From: a virus
Virus record (IMG/VR): IMGVR_UViG_3300012926_000005
Coordinates: 1 to 59,548 of that record
Strand: one strand, 5' to 3'
DNA length: 59,548 bases
Below, one piece after another: positions 1,385 to 57,104 of this stretch. Made by a program: the position numbers and the translations under genes. The notes under the pieces were generated by a model that had not been told where the DNA came from, did no database searches, and saw only the letters and a program-made list of their open reading frames with translations. Positions within the stretch are counted from its first letter, which is position 1; each line of letters opens with the position of its first letter.

Positions 1385-2545
1385 ATGAAAAGACTACTTA
1401 CTATCGCTGTGCTTCTGATTCTGTCTAACGTTGGACACTCGCAGTCAAACGTAGGTTCTGGCAGTGCCAGCACTAATGCTGACGGCACTTCACGTGTGGC
1501 CGCAACGCCGACTAGCTTATTCTATGACGGCTTCGAGACTTCTTTTGACACGGGGGCGAAGTGGAATTCCCCTACCAGCGCGGGTGGTGGAGTGGGAGAA
1601 GCATTTGTATCAGGCGGCGGGGCGATCACGTTAGGTACGGGAACGACGATCAACGGTTACAGCTACGTTCAGAGCCAAGTGACCTACCAACCCGTTCCCC
1701 CTGGGTTTTTGGTGTTTGAAGACGCAATCAAAGTTGACACTACGATTCCGGCGAACACGGAAGCATTTTGGGGTTTTGGTACTTCTCCTGCTTCACCTAC
1801 GGCGGCTGTTCCTATCACGGAAGGCTGCGGATTTGAAATACAGTCTTCAGGTACGGCGGGTACGGCTAAGATGTTCGCTGTTTGCTTCGCTGGAAGTACG
1901 CGAAACAATATTCAGGATTTGTCAGCGGCGACGGGAAACAGTAAACAGCCGACAGACGGCAATACGCATGTTTATTTCGTTTACTTCCGTGGCGATAGGT
2001 ATTGGTTTGCGATTGACTCACCTACGAACATAGTGGCACAGCAATTCAATGGAGCTAACGGGCCGAACGTAAACACGCAGCCGTTAAAGATTCAAGCTGT
2101 AGCAGGAACGATTGCTCCTGTATCAAGCCTGACTATTACTGTGGCTTCTGTCTGGGTAGGAGACTCCGGCAGTAACGGAGTCTATTCAGCGGCTTCTGGG
2201 TCACAGGCATCGGCAATACAGACCATTCAGTCAACGGCCACAGAGTCAGGGCATATATTAAAAGGCTCTGCCGGTAATTTTTACGGAGTCGTAGTTACTT
2301 CTACGGTCAATGGCCTAGTGATGATTTTCAATTCTGCGACTGTACCGGGAGACGGAGCGGTGACGCCAATCTACTGTCTACGTCTTACTCCTGACTCTGG
2401 CGGATCAGGGACAGTGAGTATCAGCTTTCTTCCCGGCCCTCCGGCCTTGTTTACTACTGGAATTTCTGTAGCTATGTCCACAGGCACGAATTGTGCCTCT
2501 AAGACGGCGAGTGCAACGGCGTGGATTACGGGGCTGGTGAAATGA
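1385..2545 (+). CDS. Secreted-like Gly/Ser-rich virion or fibre protein
   Basis: 386 aa. The first 20 residues form a Sec-type leader: MKR, a Leu/Ile-rich core, then a polar GHSQ end. The rest is low in charge and rich in Gly, Ser, Thr and Val, with alternating beta-strand patterns and a DGFETSF segment like the start of concanavalin-like domains. A copy of the 14-mer at 1423-1436 encodes SNVG within the leader. It overlaps the next gene by ATGA (2542-2545), indicating translational coupling. It lies in the virion block, so an exported fibre or adhesin-like product is inferred. Confidence 0.45.
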   Translation: MKRLLTIAVLLILSNVGHSQSNVGSGSASTNADGTSRVAATPTSLFYDGFETSFDTGAKWNSPTSAGGGVGEAFVSGGGAITLGTGTTINGYSYVQSQVTYQPVPPGFLVFEDAIKVDTTIPANTEAFWGFGTSPASPTAAVPITEGCGFEIQSSGTAGTAKMFAVCFAGSTRNNIQDLSAATGNSKQPTDGNTHVYFVYFRGDRYWFAIDSPTNIVAQQFNGANGPNVNTQPLKIQAVAGTIAPVSSLTITVASVWVGDSGSNGVYSAASGSQASAIQTIQSTATESGHILKGSAGNFYGVVVTSTVNGLVMIFNSATVPGDGAVTPIYCLRLTPDSGGSGTVSISFLPGPPALFTTGISVAMSTGTNCASKTASATAWITGLVK

Positions 2546-4335
2546 AGCATATTATTTGCATAGTGCTCCTATCAGGTCTGTGTCTGGGGCAAGCGGTAAC
2601 AGGGACATCGGGTAGCGGCTCGCCATCTGGCACTTCTAATGTCCAGCCGACGTTTGTTAGTAACAGCGCTGCGTCAGTGGTCGGTGCAGGTACGACGCTG
2701 ACTATTACAGCGCCAGCAACCATTACAAACGGCAATGCGCTAGTAATTTTCATGTCAATTTCTGGAGCCGCAAGCGAAACGTTTACTTTTCCTGCGGGAT
2801 TTTCCCAGATTGGTTCTACTCTTAGTTCTGTGGGCAGTGCGAAGATTCAAGTTGCCGCAGCCTGTAAAGTCGCCGCAAGTGAATCCGGAAACTACGTCGT
2901 TAGCTGGAATAACAACACCAATACGGCTGTGGGCTGGATGGTCAACTTGTCCGGTACAAGCTGCACGACGGACGGAGTAGGTACGGCTTCTGGTAATGCC
3001 TCTACGCTCACGGCAACGACTTTCACTCCGACAACGGCAAACGACATTTTTCTTGTCCTAAGTTCTCAGTCTTCTTCTGCTCTTAATTGGGTCAATGTGC
3101 CTGGGAACGTGGTTAAAATAGCGCAGTCCAGCGATTCGTTTTTGGGCTACTTGCCATGGGGTACTGGCGTTTCGCCAGCGGTAAAGATGGCTTATACTCT
3201 GTCTGGGTCGGCCAATGCCAATGACTCAGGTGTTTTTGTTATTGCTTTTCCAGCTACAACGACAGCAACGAATGCCCTGGTAGCCAATTCGTCTTCAGTC
3301 GCGCAAAGGGTCAACAGTATCAACGTGACCAACGGGATAGACGCTGGAGGAAGCATTAAAGGAAGTACTTTTTTAATACCTAATGGAGCTTCCTGCACAT
3401 CAACATCTTCTGGTCTTGATGGTATTTCTGCTGGCGGAAATATAGAGAAATTGCTTTGTATCAACAGTGCTGGTGCCTTGTCCTTAGATGCTGGTGGCGG
3501 ACTGACGTTTGTGAGCACGGCGGGCGGTGCGCGTGGCGGGCCATCGTTCTTGATTAGCAATGGAGCGCTAGCAGGGGTAAGTATCGATGCCAGTCAAGAT
3601 TTACCGATGGCAGATATAACTTCGCCGGGAAACGATTTGGTAGTTGGATGTAAAACTGGAGCACCAGCATCACTTATTAACTGCACTTCAGCATCTCAGT
3701 CCGGGAATATTTACGTGAACGTACAAACTGGACTTGCAGAGTTCTTTCAAGTAAATGACTCTACGGTTTTTGAGGTTGTAGGCGGCGGAACGATATTTAC
3801 TGAGGCTGCTGGGCCTACGAATGTTGCGTCTTCTGGTTCCTTTTGGGAAGATTCAACCGCGCATGAATGGAAGTCATCTACGGCGGGGTCATCTACGCCT
3901 GGTCTATTTGCAAGAGTTCAACCCGGAGTAATCCACCAAACTGCTCAAACAGCGGCAATATCTACAGCAACGCTCTGTGCTTCTTCAGCGGGGGCTTGTA
4001 ATGTTGCTGGAACCTATCATGTCAGTTTTGTCTTCTGGGAAGACGGTACCGCTTGCGCTACTCCGGGTACAGGTGGAGTAACTTTTTTGCTTACATGGAC
4101 GGATTTCAATACAACCTCGCACCCAGCAGTGTCGCTAGGGATGGATGATGCAAGTGCTATTAATGCAGTGTCACAAACTTTCCATTTCCAGACTTCTTTA
4201 GCCGCAGCTTGGGCATCCGGTGATTTTAATATTTCAACCAATGGTGCGATTATCCAGTATGCAACGGGCTATACGGCCTGCGGAGTCGGCACGGGGAGTT
4301 ATGGTTTAGATATTGCGGTTACGAGGGTGAGGTAG
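2542..4335 (+). CDS. Tail-fibre-like beta-rich protein with Sec-type leader
   Basis: About 597 aa from the ATG at 2542, chosen because it forms an ATGA overlap with the previous stop; the open frame extends upstream to 2521. The first 17 residues are a short hydrophobic leader starting MKH. The body is a Ser/Thr/Gly/Ala-rich beta protein. The C-terminal 130 residues look like a distinct beta-sandwich with three or four Cys, which could be a receptor-binding head. A Sec leader on a cytoplasmically assembled virion protein would be unusual. Confidence 0.45.
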   Translation: MKHIICIVLLSGLCLGQAVTGTSGSGSPSGTSNVQPTFVSNSAASVVGAGTTLTITAPATITNGNALVIFMSISGAASETFTFPAGFSQIGSTLSSVGSAKIQVAAACKVAASESGNYVVSWNNNTNTAVGWMVNLSGTSCTTDGVGTASGNASTLTATTFTPTTANDIFLVLSSQSSSALNWVNVPGNVVKIAQSSDSFLGYLPWGTGVSPAVKMAYTLSGSANANDSGVFVIAFPATTTATNALVANSSSVAQRVNSINVTNGIDAGGSIKGSTFLIPNGASCTSTSSGLDGISAGGNIEKLLCINSAGALSLDAGGGLTFVSTAGGARGGPSFLISNGALAGVSIDASQDLPMADITSPGNDLVVGCKTGAPASLINCTSASQSGNIYVNVQTGLAEFFQVNDSTVFEVVGGGTIFTEAAGPTNVASSGSFWEDSTAHEWKSSTAGSSTPGLFARVQPGVIHQTAQTAAISTATLCASSAGACNVAGTYHVSFVFWEDGTACATPGTGGVTFLLTWTDFNTTSHPAVSLGMDDASAINAVSQTFHFQTSLAAAWASGDFNISTNGAIIQYATGYTACGVGTGSYGLDIAVTRVR

Positions 4336-4342
4336 GTATAAT
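4313..4342 (+). promoter_or_regulatory. Sigma70-like promoter, leaderless for 4350 gene
   Basis: TTGCGG at 4313-4318, 18-bp spacer, perfect TATAAT at 4337-4342. The ATG at 4350 lies 8 nt past the -10, so transcription would begin at or next to the start codon. No SD is seen. Confidence 0.5.
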
Positions 4343-5107: not shown

Positions 5108-7119
5108 AGTCCAACGTTAGACTAATTGTGTTCCTGGTTATGGCCTGTGCATCCGCATGGGCCAATCAGGCATTTACGGGCAACTGCAACCAAGGAGGAA
5201 CTAAGGCCGTAGTTCAAGGAATTCAGTCAAGCAATAAGCTAGTCGGCAGTTATCCGGGGTGTGTAGTTACGGTTTTCATGCACGGGACTATTACGCTGGC
5301 GGCGATATTTGATGACAGCGGAACACCAATAGCCAATCCTCTCACGGCGTCACTGACTACGGGGCAATTTATCTTCACGGCTGCTAACTCTCGCTATGAT
5401 ATTCAACTTTCAGGAGGCGGGCTTCCTTCGGCGGTGACGATTACTGACGTTCTTTTTAACGACAATGCGTCGGCCAATCCATTTAGCTTCTGTACTGTGA
5501 CTTTCAGTGCAACGCCTACTTTTTCTTCGGCATCTTGCAATATCTTTCAAATGACCTTGACGGGCAATGTCGCGTCATCTATCTATTCGACGGCTACGAG
5601 CGGAGCACAAGCGATATTCATCCTCTGCCAGGACTCAAGCGGCGGGCATACGTTCACTTGGCCGACTACGATGATAGATACTCCGGCGATAAATCAAACT
5701 GCGAGTCAGTGTACTAATGTTTACTTTGTGGCCGATGCGACACCTAAATTTCATGCCGTAGGTGCTGCGGGTGACGGAAGCCATATCGTAGCAACGACAT
5801 TGAATAACGGCGCAGGTAGCGTAACTATTCCGTCCACTGGTTCAGCGGCAATCATTGCCGGAAGCAACGGCATTGTGCCTTCGACGTGCTCTACGAATAA
5901 CTACGTCAATCAGATCAACTCTTCTGGAGTACTAGTCTGCGGTACTCCAGTGACGGCGAATACAGGGACTACGCATCAGTTCTTCAGTTCCAACACTGCC
6001 GGAGGGGTATTTACGGGGACGCAGCCGACGCTATCGGACGTAGCCGCAGGTACGGCCAGTTCTGGAACGTATGACTTCTCTGGAGTGACGGTCTTTAAGA
6101 TTCGTGTAGCTGCTGGACTAACTACGGCGGCTAACGGTGAATGCGGATTTGATTCGACCAATGGGAACTATCACTGCTGGAACGGTGCGGATAACTTTGT
6201 CGGCATGTGGTCAGCTACTCCGACTACTACGGACTGTGTAAAAGCTACAGTCAGCGCCAATAAAGTATCTCTGACGGATAACGGAGGGCCGTGTGCAATT
6301 ACGGTAGCGGCAGTAGCCAGTAACTTCTTGACTAGCTACACTTCAACAACTGGACTGTTTACTAAAGCACAACCTGCCTTCACGGACATTTCTGGATCAG
6401 TAGCAGCCGCGCAATTACCTAACCCGTCATCTACGACTCTAGGCGGGGTCAAGTCGTTAGCTCTAGTAACCAATAAGTTCCTGACTGACATTACGACGGG
6501 CGGGCTTCCGGAAGCCGCACGGCCTGTAGTGGGAGACATCACGCCGGGAACAAATGGCCAGTGCATTAACACGACAGGCGGCGTAAGTGTATGGGGAGCC
6601 TGTGCAGGCACGGCGGGTGTGCAGACTACGGCTACGCCTAACACTGCGGGCGCTACGGTAGCTGGTAATACAACGGCATCTCAAGTTCTATTAGGGCAGT
6701 CGTTTGGTGCCGGGACGTTAAATACTCTAGGATCAACTTTCCGGCTAGAAGGCTACGGTACATATAATGCTGTTAACACAACGGAAACTGTAGCTATCAG
6801 CATTGTAAAGCTGGCAGGAGACGTAATAACAGGACTGTCGGTAGTGCCAGGAACTACGGGGTCGGATTTAAGTTGGCATATAATAGTCACCTGTACGACT
6901 ACGACGACCGGAGCAGCGGGAGTATTGACTTGTCCAACTTCCGGAGAGATAACCAGATCAGCGGGCGGAACTGTTACGGTAGTTCCTTATGCGGCGGCTA
7001 CTATAACAGGAGTAGACCTGACAGGAGCCAATACGTTTTCTATTGCCGCATCGTTTACGACGGCATCGGTCAGCAATTCGGCATCGCAAGCATATTTACT
7101 AGCGTTAAGGATTCAGTAA
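5104..7119 (+). CDS. Large tail-fibre-like protein with Sec-type leader
   Basis: 671 aa. Residues 1-21 form a Sec leader ending ASAWA. The 14-mer at 5109-5122 lies in codons 2-7 and encodes SNVRL. The body is almost wholly Gly/Ala/Ser/Thr/Val, with many TxxTxG units and scattered Cys, as in trimeric beta-helical fibres. A short motif (GVQTTATPNTAG) opens a C-terminal domain of about 165 residues. Its size and place before the tail genes suggest a receptor-binding fibre; the leader is odd for such a role. Confidence 0.5.
   Translation: MKSNVRLIVFLVMACASAWANQAFTGNCNQGGTKAVVQGIQSSNKLVGSYPGCVVTVFMHGTITLAAIFDDSGTPIANPLTASLTTGQFIFTAANSRYDIQLSGGGLPSAVTITDVLFNDNASANPFSFCTVTFSATPTFSSASCNIFQMTLTGNVASSIYSTATSGAQAIFILCQDSSGGHTFTWPTTMIDTPAINQTASQCTNVYFVADATPKFHAVGAAGDGSHIVATTLNNGAGSVTIPSTGSAAIIAGSNGIVPSTCSTNNYVNQINSSGVLVCGTPVTANTGTTHQFFSSNTAGGVFTGTQPTLSDVAAGTASSGTYDFSGVTVFKIRVAAGLTTAANGECGFDSTNGNYHCWNGADNFVGMWSATPTTTDCVKATVSANKVSLTDNGGPCAITVAAVASNFLTSYTSTTGLFTKAQPAFTDISGSVAAAQLPNPSSTTLGGVKSLALVTNKFLTDITTGGLPEAARPVVGDITPGTNGQCINTTGGVSVWGACAGTAGVQTTATPNTAGATVAGNTTASQVLLGQSFGAGTLNTLGSTFRLEGYGTYNAVNTTETVAISIVKLAGDVITGLSVVPGTTGSDLSWHIIVTCTTTTTGAAGVLTCPTSGEITRSAGGTVTVVPYAAATITGVDLTGANTFSIAASFTTASVSNSASQAYLLALRIQ
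5109..5122 (-). repeat. 14-mer copy, reverse orientation
   Basis: In codons 2-7 of the fibre-like gene; encodes SNVRL. Confidence 0.85.
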
Positions 7120-7548: not shown

Positions 7549-7653
7549 ATGTGTCAAGACCCTGCCCCAAGTCCCACACCGACGCCTACTCCAGTGCCGC
7601 CTCCCCCTCCACCCCCACCGCCTCCCCCTCCACCGTCTCCACTGGAGGAGTAG
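7549..7653 (+). CDS. Polyproline microprotein
   Basis: 34 aa with a strong SD (AGAGGAG). It has 21 Pro, including a run of 13, flanked by alternating Thr-Pro and ending LEE. The polyproline run would need EF-P for smooth translation. The last base of the stop codon is the first base of the 14-mer at 7653-7666. It is too short for a family call; an extended rod or linker peptide is likely. Confidence 0.55.
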   Translation: MCQDPAPSPTPTPTPVPPPPPPPPPPPPPSPLEE

Positions 7654-7666
7654 TCTAACGTTGGAC
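7653..7666 (+). repeat. 14-mer copy at gene junction
   Basis: Begins at the last base of the polyproline gene stop and ends one base before the ATG at 7668. Confidence 0.85.
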
Positions 7667-9050: not shown

Positions 9051-9264
9051 AGACCACTTTCGGGAACTTCTGCTATGTAGCATGGCGCTAATCTTTGCCA
9101 TGATAGCGGTGTGGACGATTAAACATGACGCTACAGAGGCGTTTAAATGGTCGTCCGCAGCCGTTACGACGCTCCTTGGGGCGTTATTGATGCTTATGCG
9201 TGGCCCAAGTACAGAAGCCCCTCCTAAGGCGAAGTCCGACGTTGGACAAGAGGAAAAGAAGTAG
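9034..9264 (+). CDS. Holin-like two-helix membrane protein
   Basis: 76 aa. Two hydrophobic segments (about residues 12-29 and 42-55) with a short turn and a charged C-terminal tail, as in small class II holins. It overlaps the previous gene by 17 nt. The 9234-9247 variant of the 14-mer encodes SDVG near its end. The lysozyme gene lies far away (48 kb), so the holin role is tentative. Confidence 0.45.
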   Translation: MKQLIEDHFRELLLCSMALIFAMIAVWTIKHDATEAFKWSSAAVTTLLGALLMLMRGPSTEAPPKAKSDVGQEEKK

Positions 9265-12200
9265 ATGGCGGATTACTCTCGCCCAGCTTCGGCAGAACGC
9301 TTTAAGTTCGGCGGGGTAAAAACAAATTCCTCTGCCGATAGTCTTCCTCCGCACAAATATAGCTTTGCTCAAAATGTCCGTGGCTACAGTGAATCGTCTA
9401 TCCAGTCTCGTCCGCAAATCGTTCAGCAAGTAGCCGTGCCGTTCGGCGGCAGTACGTCAGTTCTTGCTTTAGAGCCGGACATAGGTATCTACAAGCAAGG
9501 GTCGGCCATTCAGCAGTTTGCTAGTGGCGTGGTAGTAGATACGGGATACTCTTCAGGCCAGGGGTGCTCAATAAGACCTTTTCGTCCCAATGCTACTCCT
9601 AACGCATGGGATTATGTTTTTGATGACGCGCAAAACAAAAAAATCTACATAAACTCTGCTGGTACGCCGACAGTCCAAAAGGTAGGGATAGCCGAGCCGC
9701 AAAACCCTCCAGATGCTTGTCCGGATCACATGAACGTAGCTGGCGTAAATGTGGCGGCGTGGACTAATTCAGGGACGATGCTAGCACCAGCGGGGTTTAA
9801 TCGGACTACAGGAACGGTGTCAGCGTTCTTTGCTGATCCTGCTTCCGTGTCTCCTAGTCTAGCGACTAGGTACAGTATCGTGGTGGATAATCAGGTCTAC
9901 GCTATCGGGATGCTGGTGTCAGTAAATCTATCGAGCGGCGGGGCACTGCAAGCTGTAGTACAAGACGTGTTTCCTGCTATCAACCCGGCAGGTACATTGA
10001 CAGTGGCGTCTATTTTTTACGATTCTGGAGTAACAGGGACTTGTGTTGTAGTACCAGCACAGATGCCTATCAGTGGGTCAATTCCGTCAGATGTTCCGAG
10101 GGCGCAGGCTGAATCGGTTTTCAATGAAGACTTCATATCTTCGCTTCGCCGGGGTAGTATTATAACCATCGGTGCCGAGCAGGTCTTTGTCAGGACTGTA
10201 ACTAAAGGGCCGCAGGGAAATATCAGCATTCAGACATCTACAACTATAAACCATGTGGCCGGAGAAGTGATTACTGGTAACTTGGCTTTAGCTGTATCGT
10301 TTACGGAAAATCCGGCGTTGATCATAGGTCAGACGATCCAGTCGGTTGATTTCGTAGCTGGTATAGGGCCAGGGATAGGGATTGCTTTCAGTGCGCTGGC
10401 AACTAATCCGTTCACGGTAGCGCCGTTCTTGTCTGATCCTACGCTTCCGACTTCGCAGCAAGACGACTATATCCACATGTCGATCTTCATAGACGACCCA
10501 GCGAAGTTTGAAGAAGTAACAATCATCTTTGACGTTAATAACGGCGTGATGTCTTTTCAGGATAATTGTTATTACCGGACAGTGAGAATCAACGACGCGC
10601 AAGCCGGATTCTCGCAGACTCTATCCCAGATCGGTGCAGCACAGTTAGCTGAACAAAGGCTACTAATTGACCAACAAGCGGCGAGTGGTGGCGCTGGGAC
10701 GGTAAGAAGTTCGATTCAGTCAGCTACCGGAGTTAGGCAGTGGTCAGAGATAAAGTTTCCTATCAGTTCGCTGAACAGGATTGGTAATGACAAGACTCGG
10801 ACTCTAGCTAATACACAAGGCGTAGAGCTTTTATTTAGGGTCAATGGCGGTACTTCAGTAGCTTGGTCTAGTCTCTGGGTAGGAAATGGTCAAGACCCGG
10901 ACGTAGGGGATACGGGCAGTCCGATATTCTATCGGGTAAGACCGAGAAGCGCAGTTACAGGCGTTAAGGGAAATCCGAGTCCGGCGACTCGATACGGTGT
11001 AAATCCAAGAAGGCAGCAAGTGATAGTGTCTCTGCCATCGGCGGCTTACGATACGCAGATTGATACTTGGGACATTGAGAGAACTGGAGCGACGCTGACT
11101 GACTGGAGATATGTAGGTTCTACGCAGACGACGAATACGACCTACACGGACAAGCTATTTGATTCAGTTATTGAAAATAATTCGACCGATCAGTTTATGA
11201 ACCTAGAGCCGTTCCCATCTATTGGCCCTCCGATTACGGCTATATCGGCAACGATCATAGGCACGGTTATGACGGCGGTGTTTCCGCTGTCAACGGCTGC
11301 ATTAGGTTTGAGTTCAGTGGGTACGCTGTCTCAGCTTGGCAATCTTCTGCCGGGAAATCTGTTCAACGTTGGACAACAGGTATTCACGCTGCGTAAGCGG
11401 CCTACTGTAGTGTCTACGACGGCAACGACGCAGACATACCTATTCACGCTTGAGGAAAACGCAGGAACGCAGACTAATCCACTGGTTTTACTACAAGAGC
11501 CTACGTTAGCCGCGCAACCAACGAACAACGTGTGGGGGCCGGATGCGTTTGGCGTGTTCTTTTCGGTGAATGCGGGAACGGTCAATAACGGCGGTTCTTT
11601 GGGATTAAGGCCAGGACTGATTCAGTGGACAAATCCGAACAATCCTGACGGGGCTAGCGATGCGAACACGAAAGATATTTGTCCGCCTACGGAGCCTCTT
11701 ATAAATGGCGAACTACTTGGGCCTACGCCGTGCGTGGCGTCCTCTAAGCGCTGGTGGAGAGGGGCTAGGAATAGTGACGGTTCGTATTCATGGGGAAATG
11801 AAATCCCTGTAGGCGCGGGACTGGCCGCAGAGTTCGGAATCTGTTCAGATGGTGAAGCTGTCTACTTCGTAGCTAAAGACGGCATCTGTAAGCATTCTGG
11901 TGGGCCTAGGCAATCCCTGACAGACGAAGATTTGTATAACTTGTTTCCGCACGAAGGCATTTTTCCGACTGACGTTACGCCGTACTCAGGTAAGACGATC
12001 TTTGCGCCGGAGTACAAGTACGCAGCTAATATGCGGCTCGGTGTCATCAATGGATTCTTGTATTACGACTATCTTGACAGTACGCAGGCGCAGAGGACTT
12101 TAGTTTGTAACCTGAAGACTGGCGCATGGGTGCCGGATGACTACTCTAATATTTCCAGAGTGTCAATTCACGTTCCTTCTGGCGCGGCAGCGTCAAACTT

Positions 12201-13907: not shown

Positions 13908-14207
13908 ATGGAAAAGCCTAAACCAGTCGAAAGAATCTACCCAGAGCAGCGCGGCCCTCTAGCCGACTTCCACGCCTGGGATGCTCACAAGAGAGCCTAC
14001 GATTTGATCTACGACCTTCACGACAAAGTAAACGCCATGAACCATGAAACCGCTACAAAAAAGTCTAACGTTGGACAGAAGGACATGCCAGCGGGCGGGC
14101 CGTCAAACACGAAGATTACAGGAATCCCTGTCGTTGGCACTCCTCCGGCCAACGGTCATACTATCCGATATAACTCTTCTACTGGAAAATTCGAGTTTGG
14201 GGTATAA
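13908..14207 (+). CDS. Hypothetical protein, possible virion component
   Basis: 99 aa from ATG 13908 (a TTG nine bases upstream is in frame). The N-terminal half is helical and charged (PVERIYPEQRGPL, AYDLIYDLHDKVNAM), then a flexible linker encoded by the 14-mer (SNVG), then a short beta tail (GHTIRYNSSTGKFEF) of the kind seen at the ends of phage structural proteins. Confidence 0.45.
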   Translation: MEKPKPVERIYPEQRGPLADFHAWDAHKRAYDLIYDLHDKVNAMNHETATKKSNVGQKDMPAGGPSNTKITGIPVVGTPPANGHTIRYNSSTGKFEFGV

Positions 14208-15703: not shown

Positions 15704-16293
15704 GCGGGAATTCGGCAAATACAGACCGCAAGGCGGAATTATCTAGCAGAGGCAAGCTACAAGACACTGCCGGGTTTCTGTCTAATCTTGGTTCTGAGCT
15801 ATCAGGCAAAGGCAAGAAAGATACTGAAGCAGGACTTGAGGACACAGGCAAAGCCAGTAAGTACTACTCTGACATTCTCTCCGGCGATCCGACAAAAGTT
15901 ATGGCCGCAGCCGCGCCGGAAATCAAGTCTATTACCGGACAGGCCGACCAGCAAAAGCAAGAAATAGCCAGAACGGGCGACAGGTCAGGCGGAACCAACG
16001 CAGCTACGCAGGACATAGGTACAAAAGTCAGGCAGCAAATATCTGACTTAATCGCCAAACAAAAGAGCGGAGCGGCGTCAGGACTTGAAAGAACAGGCGC
16101 ACAAGTGTCTAACGTTGGACAGTCGGAAACCGGGCAAGGCATAGGCGCTACGTCTTCGGCGGGTAGTGAGTATGAGGCTTTAATCTCGAATGCAATCAAG
16201 AGTCGGGAACTTTCGGCAAAGCTTCATCAGCAGGCAGTAGATGATTGGTCAAAGGCGATTGGCGATGTAATCAGTGCTGGCACGGGAGCGTAA
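15694..16293 (+). CDS. Putative internal virion/ejection protein
   Basis: 199 aa starting inside the end of the HNH gene. It is Ala/Ser/Gly/Lys/Gln-rich and largely helical; the short N-terminal motif CIGGNSANTDR resembles small internal virion proteins. The 14-mer at 16107-16120 encodes SNVG in a linker. It is the first of three consecutive genes with ejection-protein character (199, 591, 748 aa), as in P22 gp7-gp20-gp16. Confidence 0.45.
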   Translation: MCIGGNSANTDRKAELSSRGKLQDTAGFLSNLGSELSGKGKKDTEAGLEDTGKASKYYSDILSGDPTKVMAAAAPEIKSITGQADQQKQEIARTGDRSGGTNAATQDIGTKVRQQISDLIAKQKSGAASGLERTGAQVSNVGQSETGQGIGATSSAGSEYEALISNAIKSRELSAKLHQQAVDDWSKAIGDVISAGTGA

Positions 16294-18069: not shown

Positions 18070-20315
18070 TGCAAGACCTAGCCTCTAATTCGGACTTTAC
18101 TAATCTCTCTCCAGAAGCCAAAAAGAAAGTGCTGTCTGGACTGCCGGGATTTCCGCAGTCCGCAGAAGCACAGACAAAAATCTACGAACAGTTTGGCATC
18201 AAGGAACCGGAGAAACCGAAAGAGCCGGAAGGCTTCTGGCATTCTCTAGGATCGGGATTCGGGGTAGACAAAGAGTCACGTGATTCCCGTGCTAAAGAAA
18301 TGACCGAGCATCCGGTTAAGAGTATGGGCTCTATGCCTAACCCATTATTGCCTATTATTCCCCTTAATCCCGTGCCAATGATTAAGTCAATGGGCAAGTC
18401 TTTTGGTAAGGCCCATGAATCAGAAATTCGTTCCGCAGAGAATTTTGCCAAGGGCGACATAAAGGGCGGGCTGGCGGAAAAAGCCGGAGCATTCGGCCAC
18501 ACGGTTTCAGCTGTAGCTCCGGGCGGGGAAACGATAGAGAAGTCAGGAGAGCAGTTTGGTGATAAAAACTGGAAAGGTGGACTAGGAACTGCACTCTCTG
18601 TTATCGGGCCGATACTTATAGGTGGCGCTATAAAGTCTAAGACCGGGCCGTTGAAACCACGTGCTCAATTGTCTAAACTAGTGAAAGCTACGGGCGAAAC
18701 ATCCGGCGACATGGCTGACAATCTCAATAAAGTCCAGAGCGACTTAAATGAGACGGTATCACAGAACGGTTTAGAGCATAAGACTCTAGGTACTACGGGC
18801 GATGTCCAGAAAGAGGCTACTGGATTTTATAAGACCGTAGTGGACACTAAGCAAAGAATTTCCAGCCAATATAACCTAGGTATTCAGAAGCTAGGCGGCA
18901 AAGAGTTCATGCCGACGCGGACGATTGCCAAGCTGAAAGAATTGCAAGACAAATTCCAGAAAACAGGCACTGCAGACGGCAAGGCGCAAGCGGCGGGAAT
19001 CAAGCGCATCATTGACACGGACTATTCTCATCCTAAGACCGCAGGAGCACTAGACGCAGACAGGTGGATGCAAAACGGTGTAGCGGAAGGCCAGTACAAC
19101 AAAGAGCTAACAAAGCAGATTTCCGGTACGGCTGCGGGACGTGACCCAGCGATAGCTAAAGTTATTGCCGATGGACTCAGAGACGATCTATACGAAGAGA
19201 TTTTAGGCAAAGAGCAACCGGGTACGAACTGGAGAGAAGTTAAATCAAAAGAAGGTGCTCTACTTGAGATTCAGTCGCGCCTAGGAAAGATCATTCCGGA
19301 CGTACATACCAAGCAGTTAGCCTTAGAGGGCGGCAGTAGAATGCCGTCAGCGTCGTTCTCGGTTCACGGCGGCGGTATTACTCCGAGAGTTCACATAGCC
19401 AGCAAGATGTTTCCGGGTAAGTTCGGGCCGGAGCCTACGGCGAACCGTGCAGTAGCGAAGGCATTCAGGGGAATAGAAGGCAAGACGCCGAAAAAGTCGC
19501 TGACACCGTTAAATCAGTCTAACGTTGGACAAAATCCTAAACCGCCGTCAGGCCCTAAAGGCGGTAATCCCCCTGGTGCTACGGGTAATTCAGGGTCTAA
19601 ACCGCCTCCGTCTACCCCTCCGGGTTCCACGGTCGGCAGTGCGGCAGCATCGGTAGCGGATACAAACAATTTTGCAGCGGCCAAAGCCAAACTAGGGCCG
19701 AATGCTTCCTTGAGTGAAATAGCACAAGAAGCGCAGAGGATGAAAACAGGCAATACGTCCGGCTCTGTGTCAGGAAAAGGTTCGCCTGACTTCAAGCACC
19801 AAGTATTTAATGGAGGCGATGAAATTACGACTAGCGACGGACGCACAGGGAAGGTGATTGCTACTCATGCAGACGGTAGAAGCTCTCTCTTGGTGGACTT
19901 TGGTAAAGGAAAAAAAGAGACTGTATGGCGAGAGAATATTACGTCCGTCAAGGGGCAGGGTGGCAGTACTGGACAGGCGTCTAAAAGTAAACACGCCATC
20001 ATGGAAAAACTTGAGGGAACGCCAGAAGAGTTAAAGAGAATGCGGGATCAGATGGAGGGCAGGAATAGGCATATTTTAGACAAGCTGGTAGAGGATACAA
20101 AGAACGATCCGCCGTTACAGCAAAATCAGCCTAAATTGACTTCTCTCAACGCCGAGCACCTGAAGGCTGGTAAGCCTGTGTCTGTCAAGGGTAAAAAAGG
20201 CTCCATCATAGGTAAGCATCCCGGTTCCGGAAAAATCACAGTCAAGATGGAAGATGGAAGTATCCAGCGTATAGACCCCTCGGAGTTAAATCCCAGACTT
20301 ACGCCGCTGAAATAG
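18069..20315 (+). CDS. Large internal virion/ejection protein candidate
   Basis: 748 aa. Helical and Lys/Gly-rich, with a hydrophobic Pro-rich patch (about residues 85-115) and a Gly-rich segment near 170-185. The middle holds long amphipathic helices. A disordered Pro/Gly linker includes SNVG from the 14-mer at 19517, and two small KOW/SH3-like beta units occur at the C-terminus (GDEITTSDGRTGKVIATH and AGKPVSVKGKKGSIIGKH). It shares one base (ATG/TAATG) with the gene before. Confidence 0.45.
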   Translation: MQDLASNSDFTNLSPEAKKKVLSGLPGFPQSAEAQTKIYEQFGIKEPEKPKEPEGFWHSLGSGFGVDKESRDSRAKEMTEHPVKSMGSMPNPLLPIIPLNPVPMIKSMGKSFGKAHESEIRSAENFAKGDIKGGLAEKAGAFGHTVSAVAPGGETIEKSGEQFGDKNWKGGLGTALSVIGPILIGGAIKSKTGPLKPRAQLSKLVKATGETSGDMADNLNKVQSDLNETVSQNGLEHKTLGTTGDVQKEATGFYKTVVDTKQRISSQYNLGIQKLGGKEFMPTRTIAKLKELQDKFQKTGTADGKAQAAGIKRIIDTDYSHPKTAGALDADRWMQNGVAEGQYNKELTKQISGTAAGRDPAIAKVIADGLRDDLYEEILGKEQPGTNWREVKSKEGALLEIQSRLGKIIPDVHTKQLALEGGSRMPSASFSVHGGGITPRVHIASKMFPGKFGPEPTANRAVAKAFRGIEGKTPKKSLTPLNQSNVGQNPKPPSGPKGGNPPGATGNSGSKPPPSTPPGSTVGSAAASVADTNNFAAAKAKLGPNASLSEIAQEAQRMKTGNTSGSVSGKGSPDFKHQVFNGGDEITTSDGRTGKVIATHADGRSSLLVDFGKGKKETVWRENITSVKGQGGSTGQASKSKHAIMEKLEGTPEELKRMRDQMEGRNRHILDKLVEDTKNDPPLQQNQPKLTSLNAEHLKAGKPVSVKGKKGSIIGKHPGSGKITVKMEDGSIQRIDPSELNPRLTPLK

Positions 20316-25625: not shown

Positions 25626-25640
25626 TCCAATGTCAGACAC

Positions 25641-26870: not shown

Positions 26871-26872
26871 AC
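26859..26872 (-). repeat. 14-mer copy supplying a stop codon
   Basis: Its CAACGTTAG gives the last residues and stop of the 26763 gene, then ends two bases before the ATG at 26875. Confidence 0.85.
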
Positions 26873-33621: not shown

Positions 33622-33623
33622 AC
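33610..33623 (-). repeat. 14-mer copy at start of HTH transcript
   Basis: Forms the stop of the HhH-like gene and lies near +10 of the HTH promoter. Confidence 0.85.
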
Positions 33624-38508: not shown

Positions 38509-38522
38509 GTCTAACGTTGGAC
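38509..38522 (+). repeat. 14-mer copy at convergent junction
   Basis: Immediately follows the + strand terminator and touches the last minus gene. Confidence 0.85.
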
Positions 38523-40070: not shown

Positions 40071-40327
40071 GAAAATAACCTCTCTTCAAGAAATTTGATT
40101 TCAGCTTCTAAAGCTTGAGCACGGCTAGGGAATGGCCCTAGAACCGTGTCGTAGTCGATCATGGTGGCAGTCCATTCCATGCCGAAGGTCTGACAGGAGT
40201 TAGAGGGCTCAACGTTGCTTACGCGTCTAACGTTGGACAATCCGGACTCGATCAGGGGAATTAGGGCATCCGAATAGATGCCCGTAATTTTACCGTTGCC
40301 GATCAGTAGTTTGATTTGGCTGCTCAT
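40058..40327 (-). CDS. Small hypothetical protein
   Basis: 89 aa from ATG 40327 (AGGGG SD). The 14-mer (40225-40238) encodes SNVRR in this strand. Beta-then-helix pattern with a C-terminal Glu-rich helix (AQALEAEIKFLEERLF). Overlaps neighbours by a few bases. Confidence 0.5.
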   Translation of the reverse strand: MSSQIKLLIGNGKITGIYSDALIPLIESGLSNVRRVSNVEPSNSCQTFGMEWTATMIDYDTVLGPFPSRAQALEAEIKFLEERLFSCHK

Positions 40328-41111: not shown

Positions 41112-42629
41112 TTAGTTTACCTCACTGAGATTGTAAGAACGTGCAACGTTGGACTTGGTTTCAGCCTGTATTTTATACAAGCCGGGTTCGGATGCGGAAA
41201 TGAATTTGCCTTCGGCCTGTTCGCGTAGCCGTGTGATAGTTTCACCAGCGGATACGGCAACCGGAACAACGTAGGTTGCAGCCTCTACCAGAGAACAGCG
41301 AAGGCGGAAAGCAAGGTCGCAGCATTGCTTGATTTCTGCGCCTGTCCATCCGGCATCTTTGGGCAGTTTGTCACCGTCCTTGATCTGGTATTTTTTGGCG
41401 TACAGATTCCAAATAGCTGTACGCTCTGTCTGGTTCGGAAGATCGTAAAAGAACGTGCCAAAGTTGAAGCGTCGGCGCAATTCTGGTTTCAGGGAGTCGA
41501 TGGAATTACAAGTGCCGACAAACAGCGTACGGCCTTGAGAGATAGCCTTGACGATTGCAAGGGCATGGCGAAGGTTTGCACCTGATTCGCCTACTAGGGA
41601 ACCTTTCATTCCCGAGAGGTCAAATTGAATCAGGGGAACGCCGAAGCTACCAGCAGCGGCTTTAGGGATGGCGGTTTTGCCCGCACCTGGGGGGCCTATG
41701 GATAGCATTCCGGTAGCTTGTTCGTCCTGCATCCAAGAAAGCAGTGTGCCGTGCATCTCTTGCGAGACTCCAGACAAATCGCCCTCTGTGCCTGCTAGGG
41801 CCTTTTCTATCTCGTCTAGCAGGACAATGCAGCGAAAAGGATTGTTACCTTCAAAAACCCGCGTCATGAAAGTAATGGCATTGGAGCATCCGCGAATGTC
41901 GGAAAACGTCTCAGAACCACGCCAGACGGACAGGCCAGGGGTTTGTTCTATTTGTGTCCGTTTCCTGTCCCACAAGCCCGCCACGTCAAGCCCTGACGGG
42001 CTTATAGACATGGCTACAGACTGTTCAGTCGGGAACGCAGCTAGCCCGCACGTGGCGTCAATGGCTTGAGAGATAACCGCGTCCGTCAATTCAGGCATCG
42101 ACTTGATTTGTTTTTTGGCTTCTGAGTAGACGCCAGTGATGATCGTCTTCAGTTCGTCCAACGTTGGCAGGGGTTCATCTAAGACCATGAAATCATGTTT
42201 CAGTTCTGCCGGGAGTTTGATGTCATGACAGAGAAAAACCAGAGTGCAGCCCTTGGACTTAAAAACGTCTCGAAGATTCCAAGCTGCTTGAATGAACGGC
42301 GCATCAAAAAACTTATGTGCGTTCATCACGAAAAGAATGGTCAAGTCAGGTAGCTTGATTGCTTCCCCAAGTGCCTGCACTGGATTGCGTACGGTTGACG
42401 GATTTTGACCGTAGGCCGTGCAAGCTGATTTGCTGGCTTGTGAATTGGTAAGGGCTTGAATACCGCGTACACAGTCCCAGGACAATGCAGGCACATCTAA
42501 GTCCTGCACTTTGGAGCACTGCGCCAAAATTGCGGCAATGGTAGCTTGGGGATCAGCGGTTTTGACGGCGACTAACGGGACACTGCGTTCCCGTGCCGAC
42601 TTGAATAACTGCATGAAGGTTTTAGCCAT
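41112..42629 (-). CDS. Ycf46-like AAA+ ATPase with Walker B before Walker A
   Basis: 505 aa. The N-terminal 230 residues follow the Ycf46/AAA N-domain (VQDLDVPALSWDCVRGIQ, NPVQALGEAI, DLTILFVMNAHKFF). Then CIVLLDEIEKALAG (267-280) is a Walker B, followed by GTLLSWMQ, and only then the Walker A IGPPGAGKT (311-319), LVGESG (345-350), sensor-1-like GTCNS (372-376) and RRRF (385-388). Normal AAA+ has A before B, so the core is permuted. It opens the conserved minus-strand set (DUF1257, DUF2997, DUF3150) and is probably a remodelling motor. Confidence 0.8.
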   Translation of the reverse strand: MAKTFMQLFKSARERSVPLVAVKTADPQATIAAILAQCSKVQDLDVPALSWDCVRGIQALTNSQASKSACTAYGQNPSTVRNPVQALGEAIKLPDLTILFVMNAHKFFDAPFIQAAWNLRDVFKSKGCTLVFLCHDIKLPAELKHDFMVLDEPLPTLDELKTIITGVYSEAKKQIKSMPELTDAVISQAIDATCGLAAFPTEQSVAMSISPSGLDVAGLWDRKRTQIEQTPGLSVWRGSETFSDIRGCSNAITFMTRVFEGNNPFRCIVLLDEIEKALAGTEGDLSGVSQEMHGTLLSWMQDEQATGMLSIGPPGAGKTAIPKAAAGSFGVPLIQFDLSGMKGSLVGESGANLRHALAIVKAISQGRTLFVGTCNSIDSLKPELRRRFNFGTFFYDLPNQTERTAIWNLYAKKYQIKDGDKLPKDAGWTGAEIKQCCDLAFRLRCSLVEAATYVVPVAVSAGETITRLREQAEGKFISASEPGLYKIQAETKSNVARSYNLSEVN

Positions 42630-42646: not shown

Positions 42647-42660
42647 GTCCAACGTTAGAC
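42647..42660 (-). repeat. 14-mer copy before AAA+ gene
   Basis: Lies between a membrane microprotein stop and the AAA+ ATG on the minus strand. Confidence 0.85.
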
Positions 42661-43982: not shown

Positions 43983-44506
43983 GCATAAAACGAGTTCTGA
44001 GCATAGAAAAGATACTTAGAAAAGATTACACAGTGAGACGACACCGGAGTGAGCGCAGCGAGCGGAGGTCTGGTAGGATAGCTGAGAGGTTAAGGGTTAT
44101 GGGAGAGGGGCTAAGAGAGGTTTGGGTATGTCAGATATGCGGCTATGAATGGCTGAAGAGTCGACAGAGGCATAGCGGCGAACGGCCTAAGCGGTGCGCT
44201 TCGGGGAAGTGTCGGAGTTCGTTATGGGACAGGGCGCGACGGTCTAACGTTGGACGGCCTGACAGGAGTGTGGTTAAGGCTAAGGGGCATCTGCCTACTC
44301 TCACGGCTAACGGAGAGCATAGCGGGCTTTGTAGCTGTCTGGTGTGCCTGTGGGCGATAGCAGGGTCACAGGGGGCCACGAAAGGGAGGACAGGGGTAAC
44401 GAAAGGCAGAGGGGGCCAGGAGGAGGGGGTATCTGTTCGCCCGTCTGTTTCGCCCGTCTCTTCTCATGTCGCTTCCGGTGTCGTGTCCGACAGGTTGTCC
44501 GTGTAG
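43973..44506 (+). CDS. Zinc-ribbon protein
   Basis: 177 aa if started at ATG 43973; ATG 44098 is an alternative giving 135 aa. VWVCQICGYEWLKSRQRHSGERPKRCASGKCRSSLWDR is a two-CxxC ribbon of a type seen in small phage DNA-binding proteins. The 14-mer (44242) encodes SNVGRPD. The Ser/Gly-rich end is likely disordered. Divergent from the minus operon, so regulation may be shared. Confidence 0.5.
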   Translation: MQSSIKRVLSIEKILRKDYTVRRHRSERSERRSGRIAERLRVMGEGLREVWVCQICGYEWLKSRQRHSGERPKRCASGKCRSSLWDRARRSNVGRPDRSVVKAKGHLPTLTANGEHSGLCSCLVCLWAIAGSQGATKGRTGVTKGRGGQEEGVSVRPSVSPVSSHVASGVVSDRLSV

Positions 44507-46392: not shown

Positions 46393-46598
46393 GAGTTGAG
46401 GTCGTGTCAGCAGATGGAGTCTTGACGATTCCTGTAAATGCTGACGAGTACAACGTTAGACGTGAGCACGGGATGTTGTTACGTCATGGTATCGCTGTGT
46501 ATGGCAAGTCGATCATAAAACAAAAGTATGGTAGTTTTACCTGCTATCAGCAAGGATTGACTGTGGCCGAAGATTTTGACTATCAAGACCCAGCTTGA
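46383..46598 (+). CDS. Small hypothetical protein
   Basis: 71 aa, overlapping the previous gene by 10 nt. Beta-rich with basic residues (VEVVSADGVLTIPVNADEYNVRREHGMLLR). A one-mismatch 14-mer encodes YNVRR. Ends within the -35 region of the next promoter. Confidence 0.5.
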   Translation: MAVRVEVVSADGVLTIPVNADEYNVRREHGMLLRHGIAVYGKSIIKQKYGSFTCYQQGLTVAEDFDYQDPA

Positions 46599-46880: not shown

Positions 46881-47127
46881 GCAGTTCTTAGCCGAGATAA
46901 CGCACACGGGCATGAGTCCGCTGGATTGTCCGTCCGTAGAAAAGGCTTTGCCGTGGCTGACGCAGCCGATACTCGATGAAATTACCCGGCTATACCATGA
47001 AGTCATTCAGGGTCGAATCACGATTGAAACCGTGGCGGCGTATGTGCAGACGGTGGAGCCGCAGACGATTTCAGTAGAAATTGGCGAATATCAGTTCGGT
47101 TTCTCAGGTATAAAGACTTACGCATGA
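46747..47127 (+). CDS. Hypothetical phage protein
   Basis: 126 aa, strong SD GGAGGAAGCC. Trp/Gly-rich start (STNWLQKRWGGWWGCAIGGALLAMGLG), then helices (ALPWLTQPILDEITRLYHEVIQG). The style matches a common phage family just upstream of regulators, name unknown. ATGA-coupled to the XRE gene. Confidence 0.55.
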   Translation: MQLSSAIVLGDTLKRSTSTNWLQKRWGGWWGCAIGGALLAMGLGEQFLAEITHTGMSPLDCPSVEKALPWLTQPILDEITRLYHEVIQGRITIETVAAYVQTVEPQTISVEIGEYQFGFSGIKTYA

Positions 47128-47429
47128 AGAAGGCAAACAAATGGAATGGGAAAACAGCGCCGACGATCTCACGGAAGACGAATGGCAAAGATTCCAATGG
47201 GGCCGAGTCCGCAGCGCTAGTTCTTCTGCGGCAAGACTTCGCTCTGCATTGTCGCAGACTGAGAACGGGCATGGGGTTGACGCAAGCGGAGTTTGGTAAG
47301 TTGCTGGGCTACGGTAAGACCAACGGCTATGTTGCGGTAAGTCGGCTGGAGCGGGGAGAACATAAGCCACAGCAAGAGTATTTAGTCCGGTTCATGGAAA
47401 TTCAGATCAAGTACGACAATCGAGTTTAG
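47124..47429 (+). CDS. XRE-family HTH regulator
   Basis: 101 aa. CRRLRTGMGLTQAEFGKLLGYGKTNGYVAVSRLERGEHKPQQEYLVRF is a Cro/CI-type HTH (about residues 43-92). The 40-residue N-terminus is polar and basic. ATGA overlap with the previous gene. The 14-mer follows its stop by less than 20 nt, so autoregulation is possible. One of two candidate binders of the genome's repeated motifs. Confidence 0.75.
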   Translation: MKKANKWNGKTAPTISRKTNGKDSNGAESAALVLLRQDFALHCRRLRTGMGLTQAEFGKLLGYGKTNGYVAVSRLERGEHKPQQEYLVRFMEIQIKYDNRV

Positions 47430-47442
47430 TCCAACGTTAGAC
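47429..47442 (-). repeat. 14-mer copy after XRE gene
   Basis: Starts at the end of the XRE stop codon, just before the TTG-start gene. Confidence 0.85.
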
Positions 47443-47988: not shown

Positions 47989-48416
47989 TTACAAATATCC
48001 TGAGTCAATTAAAACGGGATGAGGGCTTGAGCCTCAAGCCCTATCGGGATAGTCGCGGCATTATTACGGTGGGTTACGGCCACAACTTAGAAGTTAACCG
48101 CGAGAGCGCCAGAGAAATCACAGAAGAACGCGCTAACCAGTTTCTCCAGTCTGACCTAGAGGAAGTTACGCGGCGAATCCATATGAAAATAGATTGGGCC
48201 GACAGGCTAGATACTGTCCGGTTTGGCGTCCTGCAAAACTTGGGTTTTAATGTCGGTGTTGGTGCGCTGCTAGGTTTCAAGAAAACTCTGGGCTATATCG
48301 AGAACGGCGACTATAACAGCGCAGCCGATGAAATGCTTGATTCAGATTGGGCCAAGCAAGTAGGCGACCGGGCGGTACGGCTGGCAGAACAAATGCGCTC
48401 CGGCCAATGGGTCTAA
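47985..48416 (+). CDS. GH24 lysozyme (endolysin)
   Basis: 143 aa, TTG start overlapping the previous TGA. E13, D22 and T28 with GYGHNL keep the exact spacing of T4 lysozyme E11-D20-T26. It cleaves the muramic acid-GlcNAc bond of peptidoglycan. No signal peptide or SAR helix, so a holin is needed. It ends at the 14-mer. Confidence 0.9.
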   Translation: MITNILSQLKRDEGLSLKPYRDSRGIITVGYGHNLEVNRESAREITEERANQFLQSDLEEVTRRIHMKIDWADRLDTVRFGVLQNLGFNVGVGALLGFKKTLGYIENGDYNSAADEMLDSDWAKQVGDRAVRLAEQMRSGQWV

Positions 48417-48424
48417 CGTTGGAC
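48411..48424 (+). repeat. 14-mer copy between lysozyme and terminase
   Basis: Includes the lysozyme stop (TAA) and ends one base before the terminase small-subunit ATG. Confidence 0.85.
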
Positions 48425-51213: not shown

Positions 51214-51718
51214 CGTGGACTGGAATAAAGACGGTAGCTGCTGGATTGAGATAGCACCGGGACGCAAGAAGCTATTCGGCAAAAAACACCCTGCTACACT
51301 CGCTGCAAAAAATCGTCTAACGTTGGACTACATTCGAGAGGCCAAAAATAATAAGACCCGTGGCGGGCGTGGTGTGACGGTGTACTATCGGGATGAGAGC
51401 GGGAAAATCTGCCTTCCGCCGTCTCCGGATTTAGCGCCGAAAGGATACGTGATTCACGAAGCCAGCGGGCCGATAGCGCAAGACAAACTTTGCCGTGAAA
51501 TGGAAAGAGATTTAAGGGCTGACTACGGCAATGACTACATGACAGCTTACATGGACTCTGAGCAAGGCAATCCCCGTGACGTACTGGCAAGGACTCATGC
51601 CATGTCTAATTTGGAGCGGGACTTAATTGGTGCTATGCTGGAGGACTTGGACAAAGAAGAGTCTAAACGGCAGAGAGTTAACTGCAATACGTACTTTCCT
51701 GAGCGGGAGAGAATGTAA
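51203..51718 (+). CDS. Hypothetical protein between terminase and portal
   Basis: 171 aa. Basic first half (IAPGRKKLFGKKHPATLAAKNRLTLDYIREAKNNKTRGG) and acidic helical second half. The 14-mer (51315) encodes RLTLDY. Overlaps both neighbours. No family recognised. Confidence 0.5.
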   Translation: MSTSVDWNKDGSCWIEIAPGRKKLFGKKHPATLAAKNRLTLDYIREAKNNKTRGGRGVTVYYRDESGKICLPPSPDLAPKGYVIHEASGPIAQDKLCREMERDLRADYGNDYMTAYMDSEQGNPRDVLARTHAMSNLERDLIGAMLEDLDKEESKRQRVNCNTYFPERERM

Positions 51719-54179: not shown

Positions 54180-54457
54180 TGTCTAACGTTGGACATGTCG
54201 AAGCTGCCTATCAAGAAGCAATCGAAAATCCCTCACGTTGTCGCAAAAGAAACGGAACTACATCAAGAAGCAAGACGGGACTTATGGGAGCTTACCGCTG
54301 TTTGCCTAGAGGCAAATGGCGTTCCTCTATCAGGATAAATGGCAAGACGACAATTCTAAAGAACGCCGAAGGTAAGACCTATTTTCACTCCGCAGAAGAA
54401 GCAAACGCCGCGTACATTAAAGCCGCTACAGACGCCGGGATAATTCAAGTCACTTAA
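54179..54457 (+). CDS. Orphan AP2-like domain protein
   Basis: 92 aa. The 14-mer at 54181 forms codons 2-5 (SNVG). GLMGAYRCLPRGKWRSSIRINGKTTILKN ... TYFHSAEEANAAYIKAA aligns by pattern with the AP2 domain of the HNH enzyme at 14984 (RFKGVYFCNGAWQAQIR ... FPSEELAAKAYDQKA). No HNH part is present, so it is probably a remnant or a stand-alone DNA-binding protein. Confidence 0.55.
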   Translation: MSNVGHVEAAYQEAIENPSRCRKRNGTTSRSKTGLMGAYRCLPRGKWRSSIRINGKTTILKNAEGKTYFHSAEEANAAYIKAATDAGIIQVT

Positions 54458-57088: not shown

Positions 57089-57090
57089 TA

Positions 57091-57104
57091 GTCTAACGTT
57101 AGAC
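57091..57104. repeat. Only fully symmetric 14-mer copy
   Basis: GTCTAACGTTAGAC, a perfect palindrome between capsid and decoration genes. Confidence 0.9.

Follow-up and report, generated by a model that had tools for sequence, protein, structure and literature searches.

A virus genome of 59,548 nucleotides, IMG/VR record IMGVR_UViG_3300012926_000005 (positions 1 to 59,548; "the window" below means this whole stretch), carries some 30 copies of a 14-bp palindrome, GTCYAACGTTRGAC, dispersed among its genes. The word is abundant, selected, phage-specific, unoriented and evenly spaced, and the selection acts on the DNA. The original prediction for this DNA had counted 19 exact copies and 11 near-matches, and our count agrees with it: 19 sites are exact, nine have one mismatch and two have two mismatches, giving 30 sites, compared with a mean of 0.46 and a maximum of 3 at two or fewer mismatches in 100 dinucleotide shuffles of the window. 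Eight further sites with three mismatches were taken as background. The sites are listed here in map order, together with two candidate binding proteins, 33653 and 47124, and a predicted promoter:

1423..1436, +, exact site GTCTAACGTTGGAC
5109..5122, +, exact site GTCCAACGTTAGAC at the start of gene 5104
7653..7666, +, exact site GTCTAACGTTGGAC just before adaptor gene 7668
9234..9247, +, site with 1 mismatch
11361..11374, +, site with 1 mismatch
14063..14076, +, exact site; a site of the relative G001 lies within 5 bp of the interpolated position
16107..16120, +, exact site
19517..19530, +, exact site
21885..21898, +, site with 1 mismatch; G001 has an exact site at the aligned base
23997..24010, +, site with 1 mismatch
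24500..24513, +, site with 1 mismatch
25625..25638, +, site with 2 mismatches
26859..26872, +, exact site, intergenic
29886..29899, +, exact site
31368..31381, +, site with 1 mismatch
31536..31549, +, exact site at the start of dnaB-like gene 31529
33565..33593, +, predicted sigma-70-like promoter of gene 33653 (TTGACA, 17 bp, TAAATT)
33610..33623, +, exact site, proposed operator of gene 33653; VQR-stop at a gene end
33653..34594, +, candidate binding protein 1, 313 aa, with a Lys/Ala-rich N-terminal part and a possible helix-turn-helix (by eye)
37499..37512, +, site with 1 mismatch
38509..38522, +, exact site, intergenic
40225..40238, +, exact site
41141..41154, +, site with 1 mismatch
42156..42169, +, site with 2 mismatches
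42647..42660, +, exact site upstream of AAA gene 41112-42629(-)
44242..44255, +, exact site
46448..46461, +, site with 1 mismatch
47124..47429, +, candidate binding protein 2, 101 aa, XRE-family helix-turn-helix protein (by Pfam and model)
47429..47442, +, exact site at the stop codon of the XRE gene 47124..47429
48411..48424, +, exact site
51315..51328, +, exact site; identical 14-mer at the aligned base of G001
54181..54194, +, exact site just after the end of the portal gene (54179)
57091..57104, +, exact, fully symmetric site (TT) immediately after the major capsid gene; a G001 site lies within 1 bp of the mapped position

When the 14-bp palindromes of the window were classed by half-site, with the fourth base pooled as Y or R, the class GTCYAAC had 19 members and every other class at most one. 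A GTCTAAC half is combined with a GTCCAAC half in 18 of the 19 exact sites, a pairing that had been predicted and that our recount reproduces. Judged by bases 4 and 11, 25 of the 30 sites are such T/C hybrids (13 T>C and 12 C>T). The site had been called oriented for this reason; that description stands for the site as a unit, with its T half and C half, but the orientation is not tied to transcription, as plus-transcribed DNA of the window holds 12 T>C and 11 C>T sites. Nothing visibly in common was seen in the flanks. None of the six 14-mers searched was found in open-licence PubMed Central (PMC) papers, and the terms 'phage genome', 'evenly spaced' and 'palindrome' combined gave no match among them. 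Among the papers listed on dispersed repressor sites and on P1 C1 operators there was no closer match.

To place the sites relative to genes, we used a simple in-house gene caller (coding share 0.76) that misses genes, so the observed and expected counts are rough. Half of the window sites (15/30) lie wholly inside called genes and 15/30 touch non-coding DNA (expected 7.5, p 0.003), as do 15 of the 28 sites of G001 (expected 7.75, p 0.003). The centre of 13 of the 30 window sites is at most 40 bp away from the start or stop of a gene (expected 4.0, p 5e-5), which bears out the earlier impression that many copies sit at gene boundaries. Within plus-strand genes, nine of 13 sites are read in frame 2 (the SNVG type), four in frame 1 and none in frame 0, and the minus-strand gene has one site in frame 2 and one in frame 1. 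Frame 0 of both T/C forms contains a stop and was seen at a gene end (33610, VQR-stop). The claim that all three frames are used is therefore correct only if gene ends are counted, and inside genes frames 2 and 1 alone occur. Promoter-like scores were not raised near intergenic sites of the window (p 0.19), of G001 (p 0.56) or of two phages with similar palindromes, G010 (p 0.34) and G005 (p 0.87); for the intergenic sites of a third such phage, G004, p was 0.039, uncorrected for several tests. A role of the sites as promoters was rejected on this lack of score enrichment in the window, G001, G005 and G010.

The spacing of the sites is far more even than chance. The coefficient of variation (CV) of the intervals is 0.52 for the 30 window sites compared to 0.95 for random sets, and none of 5000 random sets was as even. 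It is 0.46 for the 28 sites with at most one mismatch and 0.50 for the 19 exact sites (P 0.001). The 28 sites of G001 gave 0.48, again with none of 5000 random sets as even, and under a null that preserves the intergenic share none of 3000 sets was as even for each of the window, G001 and G010. The typical interval is ~2 kb and the largest gap in the window is 3,889 bp. Even spacing with such a limit on gap length is expected if no long stretch may stay unbound, and is not expected of ordinary operators.

Scanning IMG/VR for the exact word GTCTAACGTTGGAC returned 62 stretches, and several copies were found in just two contigs, 3300035111_000017 (G001, 59,682 bp) and 3300047314_000077 (G002, 13,169 bp). 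G001 has 24 exact and four one-mismatch GTCYAACGTTRGAC sites, dominated by T/C hybrids as in the window (20/28), and G002 has seven exact sites. Once reversed and rotated, G001 aligns collinearly with the window, with ~60-65% DNA identity in the aligned parts, and because the ends of the window map ~48 bp apart in G001 the window was treated as a near-complete circular map. Positions were mapped through a chain of tblastx blocks and interpolated outside the aligned blocks, where the mapping can be off; on this map a G001 site is found no more than 6 bp from four of the 30 window sites (0.19 for the shifted null) and no more than 100 bp from eight (null 2.7). Most sites have thus turned over. 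Seven window sites fall inside ungapped tblastx blocks; two of these are also sites in G001, and five face unrelated sequence there and so arose without insertion. Substitution thus seems to create and remove sites, also within genes, with their number and spacing kept. In the comparison with relatives, which had been named as a check of the signal, the abundance is kept in G001 but most positions are not.

The named relatives of the window phage are the Tunturiibacter phages Tunturi_1 and Tunturi_2 (terminase 49% and capsid 58% identity), which were isolated on an Acidobacteriota soil strain and are described with lytic cycles (PMC11924767). Tunturi_1 has 12 GTCCAATATTGGAC-like sites at two or fewer mismatches (7 + 5; 0.12 and 0.09 in shuffles). 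Another palindrome, AGAACGTTCT, occurs in three exact copies in Tunturi_1 (7634, 12565 and 44928) and in three in Tunturi_2. A further relative, G003 (57,363 bp; terminase 54% identical to that of the window), has no GTCYAACGTTRGAC site at two or fewer mismatches and carries 46 copies of an asymmetric word, CGGTAACT (~1.3 expected), with 19 copies in its first 20 kb compared to 0.44 in shuffles and with borderline even spacing (P 0.051). The dispersed word therefore differs between sub-lineages, being GTCCAATATTGGAC in the Tunturi phages and CGGTAACT in G003. Within open reading frames (ORFs) of at least 100 aa, 18 of the G003 copies are on the gene strand and 19 on the opposite strand, and nine lie outside; an ATG directly follows six of the 46. 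The same word has seven copies in G001 and none in the window (~1.8 expected by composition). No proviruses of this phage family were found in bacterial genomes by capsid alignment.

The first candidate for the binding protein is 33653. Of the relatives compared (G001, G003, Tunturi_1 and Tunturi_2), G001 (47% identity), Tunturi_1 and Tunturi_2 (26 and 27%) have homologs, and none was found in G003, which may be incomplete. In a search of 50,697 phage records (expectation value (E) ≤0.1), the two Tunturi phages were the only ones to match residues 83-313. Lys and Ala abound in the N-terminal part of the window protein and Lys in that of its G001 homolog; the Tunturi homologs lack this part, and the Tunturi phages also have fewer and less even sites, a correlation across only three lineages. 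A well-conserved segment, FTSFDKWLREAAPVSRASAYASLKAGEKLL, looks like a helix-turn-helix. The predicted promoter of gene 33653 has a counterpart in G001 (TTGACA, 17 bp, TAACTT), and in both phages a palindrome follows it, starting 16 bp after the -10 hexamer in the window and 12 bp after it in G001, at a distance of 29 and 23 bp from the ATG, respectively. No other site of the window or of G001 has a promoter-like score near it as high as the one at this position (12.6 and 10.2, respectively). The gene upstream is a DUF7178 gene in the window and a dnaB-like gene in G001, and since these upstream genes differ, the promoter and site element appears to go with gene 33653. Both 33653 and 47124 had been put forward as candidates from the start; 33653 has gained support from its homologs and from the conserved promoter and site, and 47124, the XRE protein, stays a possible second.

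We tentatively prefer the explanation, without rating it as probable, that the sites are binding sites of a phage-encoded dimer, likeliest 33653, tiling the genome as roadblocks or anchors. A DNA-binding dimer of this kind would bind the ~30 palindromes, and 33653 would adjust its own expression at the site that directly follows its conserved predicted promoter. The evenly tiled, bound dimers would act as unoriented transcription roadblocks or as bridging points, and bridging points would fold or cover the phage DNA. The proposed system would be stoperator-like in effect and nucleoid-protein-like in layout. A more far-reaching form of this proposal, which we regard as doubtful, is that of a lytic phage with its own genome organiser, in which 33653, with a Lys-rich, histone-H1-like tail and a helix-turn-helix, would tile the palindromes, control itself and mark viral DNA versus word-poor host DNA, with each lineage evolving its own pair of word and reader.

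Several results weigh against 33653 as the binder and against an evenly tiled array. No family or PDB match supporting DNA binding was found for 33653 in Pfam, PHROGs, NCBIfam or PDB, its AlphaFold2 model is poor (predicted local distance difference test score (pLDDT) 48.8) and a fold search with this model returned nothing usable. The 33653 profile had no match in G004, G005 and G010, phages that bear similar palindromes and may be incomplete. In Tunturi_1, the region around the 33653 homolog (42,752-43,444) is without a site at three or fewer mismatches from 41,000 to 45,500. The 24 exact sites of G001 taken alone are borderline even (CV 0.70, P 0.053), and the 12 sites each of Tunturi_1 and Tunturi_2 are not evenly spaced (P 0.41 and 0.21). 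Promoter-like scores, unraised near the sites of the window, G001, G005 and G010, also give no indication of what nearly all of the sites do.

A possible, if improbable, alternative is that 47124 is the binder, a small repressor-like dimer that would read the palindrome as the P22 c2 or 434 repressors read theirs, the array silencing or damping transcription; 434 operators are 14 bp long. Among 77 window ORFs searched with Pfam, the family of 47124 is the only sequence-specific regulator family at E ≤0.01, and the HTH_3 and HTH_31 models both score above their cut-offs. 47124 is a clear XRE protein; its structural model shows a five-helix XRE-like domain (pLDDT 73.8) with a disordered tail, and the nearest structures are P22 c2 and C.Csp231I, at weak E values (0.11-0.12; none below 0.001). 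The gene lies upstream of terL in four lineages (the window, G001, G003 and Tunturi_1). The recognition helices, compared by eye on the four sequences, read VAVSR in the window, VTVSR in G001, LQITR in Tunturi_1 and ITVWQ in G003, and are thus alike in the GTCYAA phages and different in G003 with its different word. The XRE gene has a palindrome at its 3' end or close to it in the window and in G001; in G001 a second one precedes the ORF start by 106 bp. However, a homolog is also present in G003, which is without the palindrome, the window protein carries four inserted residues ahead of the recognition helix when compared with that of G001, with an identical site in both phages, and the nearest upstream site in the window (46448) is ~660 bp from the start of the gene.

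The array might alternatively be purely architectural or partitioning, with no effect on transcription, its sites serving as anchors for DNA folding, copying or packaging in the manner of matS or KorB sites. We consider this unlikely. The even tiling, the limited largest gap and the indifference to orientation would suit such anchors, as would the Lys/Ala-rich tail of 33653 in the window and the Lys-rich one in G001. However, no ParA/ParB, SMC or MatP family was matched in the subset of window ORFs scanned with Pfam, and one site lies just after a conserved predicted promoter. The nucleoid or partition site offered in the original prediction may apply and fits the even spacing; ParA/ParB-type proteins, as encoded by ParB/parS systems, had no match among the scanned ORFs.

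The comparison with mycobacteriophage stoperators fares worse. On this reading the sites would be true stoperators, operators of a lysogeny repressor that halt prophage transcription as in L5, and ~30 dispersed sites enriched at gene boundaries are what it would lead one to expect. Using the L5 word, we found 30 matches in D29 at two or fewer mismatches, with a spacing CV of 1.17 compared to 0.52 in the window, and with the main orientation of the arm followed by 19 of 21 matches in the right arm and six of nine in the left. L5 and D29 have 20-30 short dispersed sites in short intergenic spaces and promoters (PMC9283540), which in number and dispersal resembles the 30 sites here, of which 15 touch non-coding DNA and 15 are inside genes. 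The L5 sites are described as 13-bp, asymmetric, monomer-bound elements whose orientation follows transcription and which fail when reversed (PMC9283540), unlike the palindromic, unoriented and evenly spaced sites of the window. No integrase, recombinase or partition family was matched in the subset of window ORFs scanned with Pfam. Among the isolates, recombinase/integrase genes are annotated in Tunturi 3-5 (PMC11924767). With D29 stoperators oriented and uneven, the window system is not of the L5 type by membership; the likeness to L5 that had been drawn breaks down on asymmetry, orientation and spacing, and true stoperators are a distinctly unlikely explanation.

Similar palindromes also occur in phages outside this family. 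Scans of IMG/VR for GTCTAACGTTAGAC (93 stretches) and for GTCCAATATTGGAC, in the latter case among the matches listed, led to four phages with dispersed copies (G004, G005, G010 and G011), none of which had a terminase or capsid match to the window at the thresholds used. At one or fewer mismatches, G010 has 40 sites, G011 38, G004 14 and G005 eight, those of G004 and G005 being limited to one part of the contig. G010 and G011 look like cyanophages, as they contain 157 and 152 copies of HIP1 (GCGATCGC), the highly iterated palindrome of cyanobacterial host chromosomes; each has ~40 GTCYAATATTRGAC sites, and G010 also encodes histidine kinase and response-regulator domains. G010 is dominated by symmetric TT sites, unlike the T/C hybrids of the window and G001. 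Non-coding DNA is touched by 32 of the 40 G010 sites (expected 8.1; p 8e-16). The even layout recurs in these phages, with a spacing CV of 0.54 in G010 (0/5000 random sets as even), 0.59 in G011 (P 0.0002), 0.43 over a nine-site region of G005 (P 0.014) and 0.61 in G004 (P 0.054).

No protein common to all similar-palindrome groups was found by blastp and phmmer. Single pairs share genes (DUF3150, an endolysin-like gene and a nuclease), but one binder common to all was rejected, and we claim no homology between the groups. As millions of contigs were scanned for exact words, the half-site agreement among unrelated phages may be due to chance. Among 153 loci of at least 8 kb, 12 had a 10-bp palindrome in at least three dispersed copies (six from the named groups, four of low complexity and two others). 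The window encodes, at 39141-42629 (-), a DUF3150-like protein near an AAA ATPase, which has a below-cut-off match to the model of the anti-phage ATPase IteA (1.4e-11); the DUF3150-like protein has homologs in G004 and G005, one of them matching Pfam DUF3150. By tblastn its homologs were at first found only in multi-site contigs. The DUF3150-like protein (39141-40070) was nevertheless rejected as binder, since relatives were found at 24 loci and 19 of the 23 scanned were without the motif. The loci bearing it were only L439, L440 and L443 (G005 group) and L448 (G004), and L441 lacks it though 68% identical to G005 in this protein. Separately, other dispersed words are found in the viral contigs L137, L225, L441, L444 and L460, each with its particular word (for example, GTTATATAAC for L444 and CCGCAGTAG for L460), and positions 18157-20577 of G006 hold six GTCCAAYRTTGGAC-like sites within 2.4 kb of a 36-kb contig.

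The recurrence of the same half-site in the unrelated phages G004, G005, G010 and G011, together with 81 sites in a Phaeodactylibacter genome of 7.9 Mb, could point to a DNA-binding protein of the host, or to a repeat in its chromosome, as the origin of the sites. Phaeodactylibacter and Saprospiraceae had many word copies among the genome-scan matches listed. The host phylum of the window phage is presumably Acidobacteriota, as inferred from the Tunturi relatives, and there GTCYAAYRTTRGAC occurs in one copy each in six of 199 genomes, compared with ~27 occurrences (hand count) of a backwards control pattern in the same set; 194 cyanobacterial genomes hold 12 sites in 11 of them. The inspected Saprospiraceae copies are edges of repeated elements with one conserved flank, so the host repeat was rejected as the source of the phage sites. 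The agreement among phages may be due to chance, and a host origin of the sites, by protein or repeat, is very unlikely. In the same material (contigs of Phaeodactylibacter mag.15 and Saprospiraceae R4_Bin_Bin_85_1), GGCTACCC-GTCTAACGTTGGACA forms the edge of repeated elements of several families, which are probably mobile. In the frequency check proposed at the outset, the palindrome is nearly absent from genomes of the likely host phylum, and similar ones occur in unrelated phages. The near-absence and the high copy number in G001 strongly support the idea of a phage-wide binding site, with binding itself predicted. A mobile palindromic repeat spreading by insertion would yield many near-identical copies, but it is contradicted by the seven sites in ungapped blocks with G001, which replace sequence without insertion, and by flanks with nothing visibly in common, leaving it hardly credible.

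Other dispersed words set the window system in context. HIP1, also a highly iterated palindrome, differs in that it belongs to host chromosomes, whereas genomes of the presumed host phylum nearly lack the window palindrome. Integron core sites (RYYYAAC/GTTRRRY) have an invariant AAC/GTT; their letters fit the window, but the Tunturi variants have AAT/ATT, and this identity was rejected. In SPbeta, the dispersed 15-bp SPBRE motif is bound by one phage protein, MrpR, as proposed here, but the binding peaks fall in the promoter regions of ten named genes in a temperate prophage (PMC10516654), while the ~30 window sites show no promoter enrichment and the 33653 promoter is the best single case. 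MrpR is a repressor with a tyrosine-recombinase fold, and no recombinase family was matched in the window ORFs scanned with Pfam. In the Nostoc phages, dispersed motifs (43 copies in A-1, 21 in N-1) typically lie between ORFs in inconsistent orientation; the authors found no integrase and suggested stoperators (PMC4916379). In the first 50 kb of each we found CCCCGGAATCA in N1 (KU234532), and CCCCGGAGTCA with a second dispersed palindrome, AGAGTSACTCTA, in A1 (KU234533); the dispersed word differs between these two relatives, as in the phage lineages here, but the main Nostoc word is asymmetric. T1-like phages (16 copies in Stevie, 20 in T1; also TLS) are lytic and carry dispersed 22-bp repeats, but these are asymmetric, predominantly intergenic and oriented with transcription (PMC4319613, PMC11447400).

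Phage-wide dispersed words are on record for T1-like and Nostoc phages, with no function known. What is new here is that the sites are far more even than chance in both the window and G001, unoriented and without promoter enrichment. The present case adds a measurable property, namely even spacing and lack of orientation with site turnover at constant abundance, as well as a control, in that genomes of the likely host phylum nearly lack the word, and it names a candidate protein whose predicted promoter and site are conserved. Together, these make a standing oddity of phage genomes directly testable, partly with the isolated Tunturi phages.

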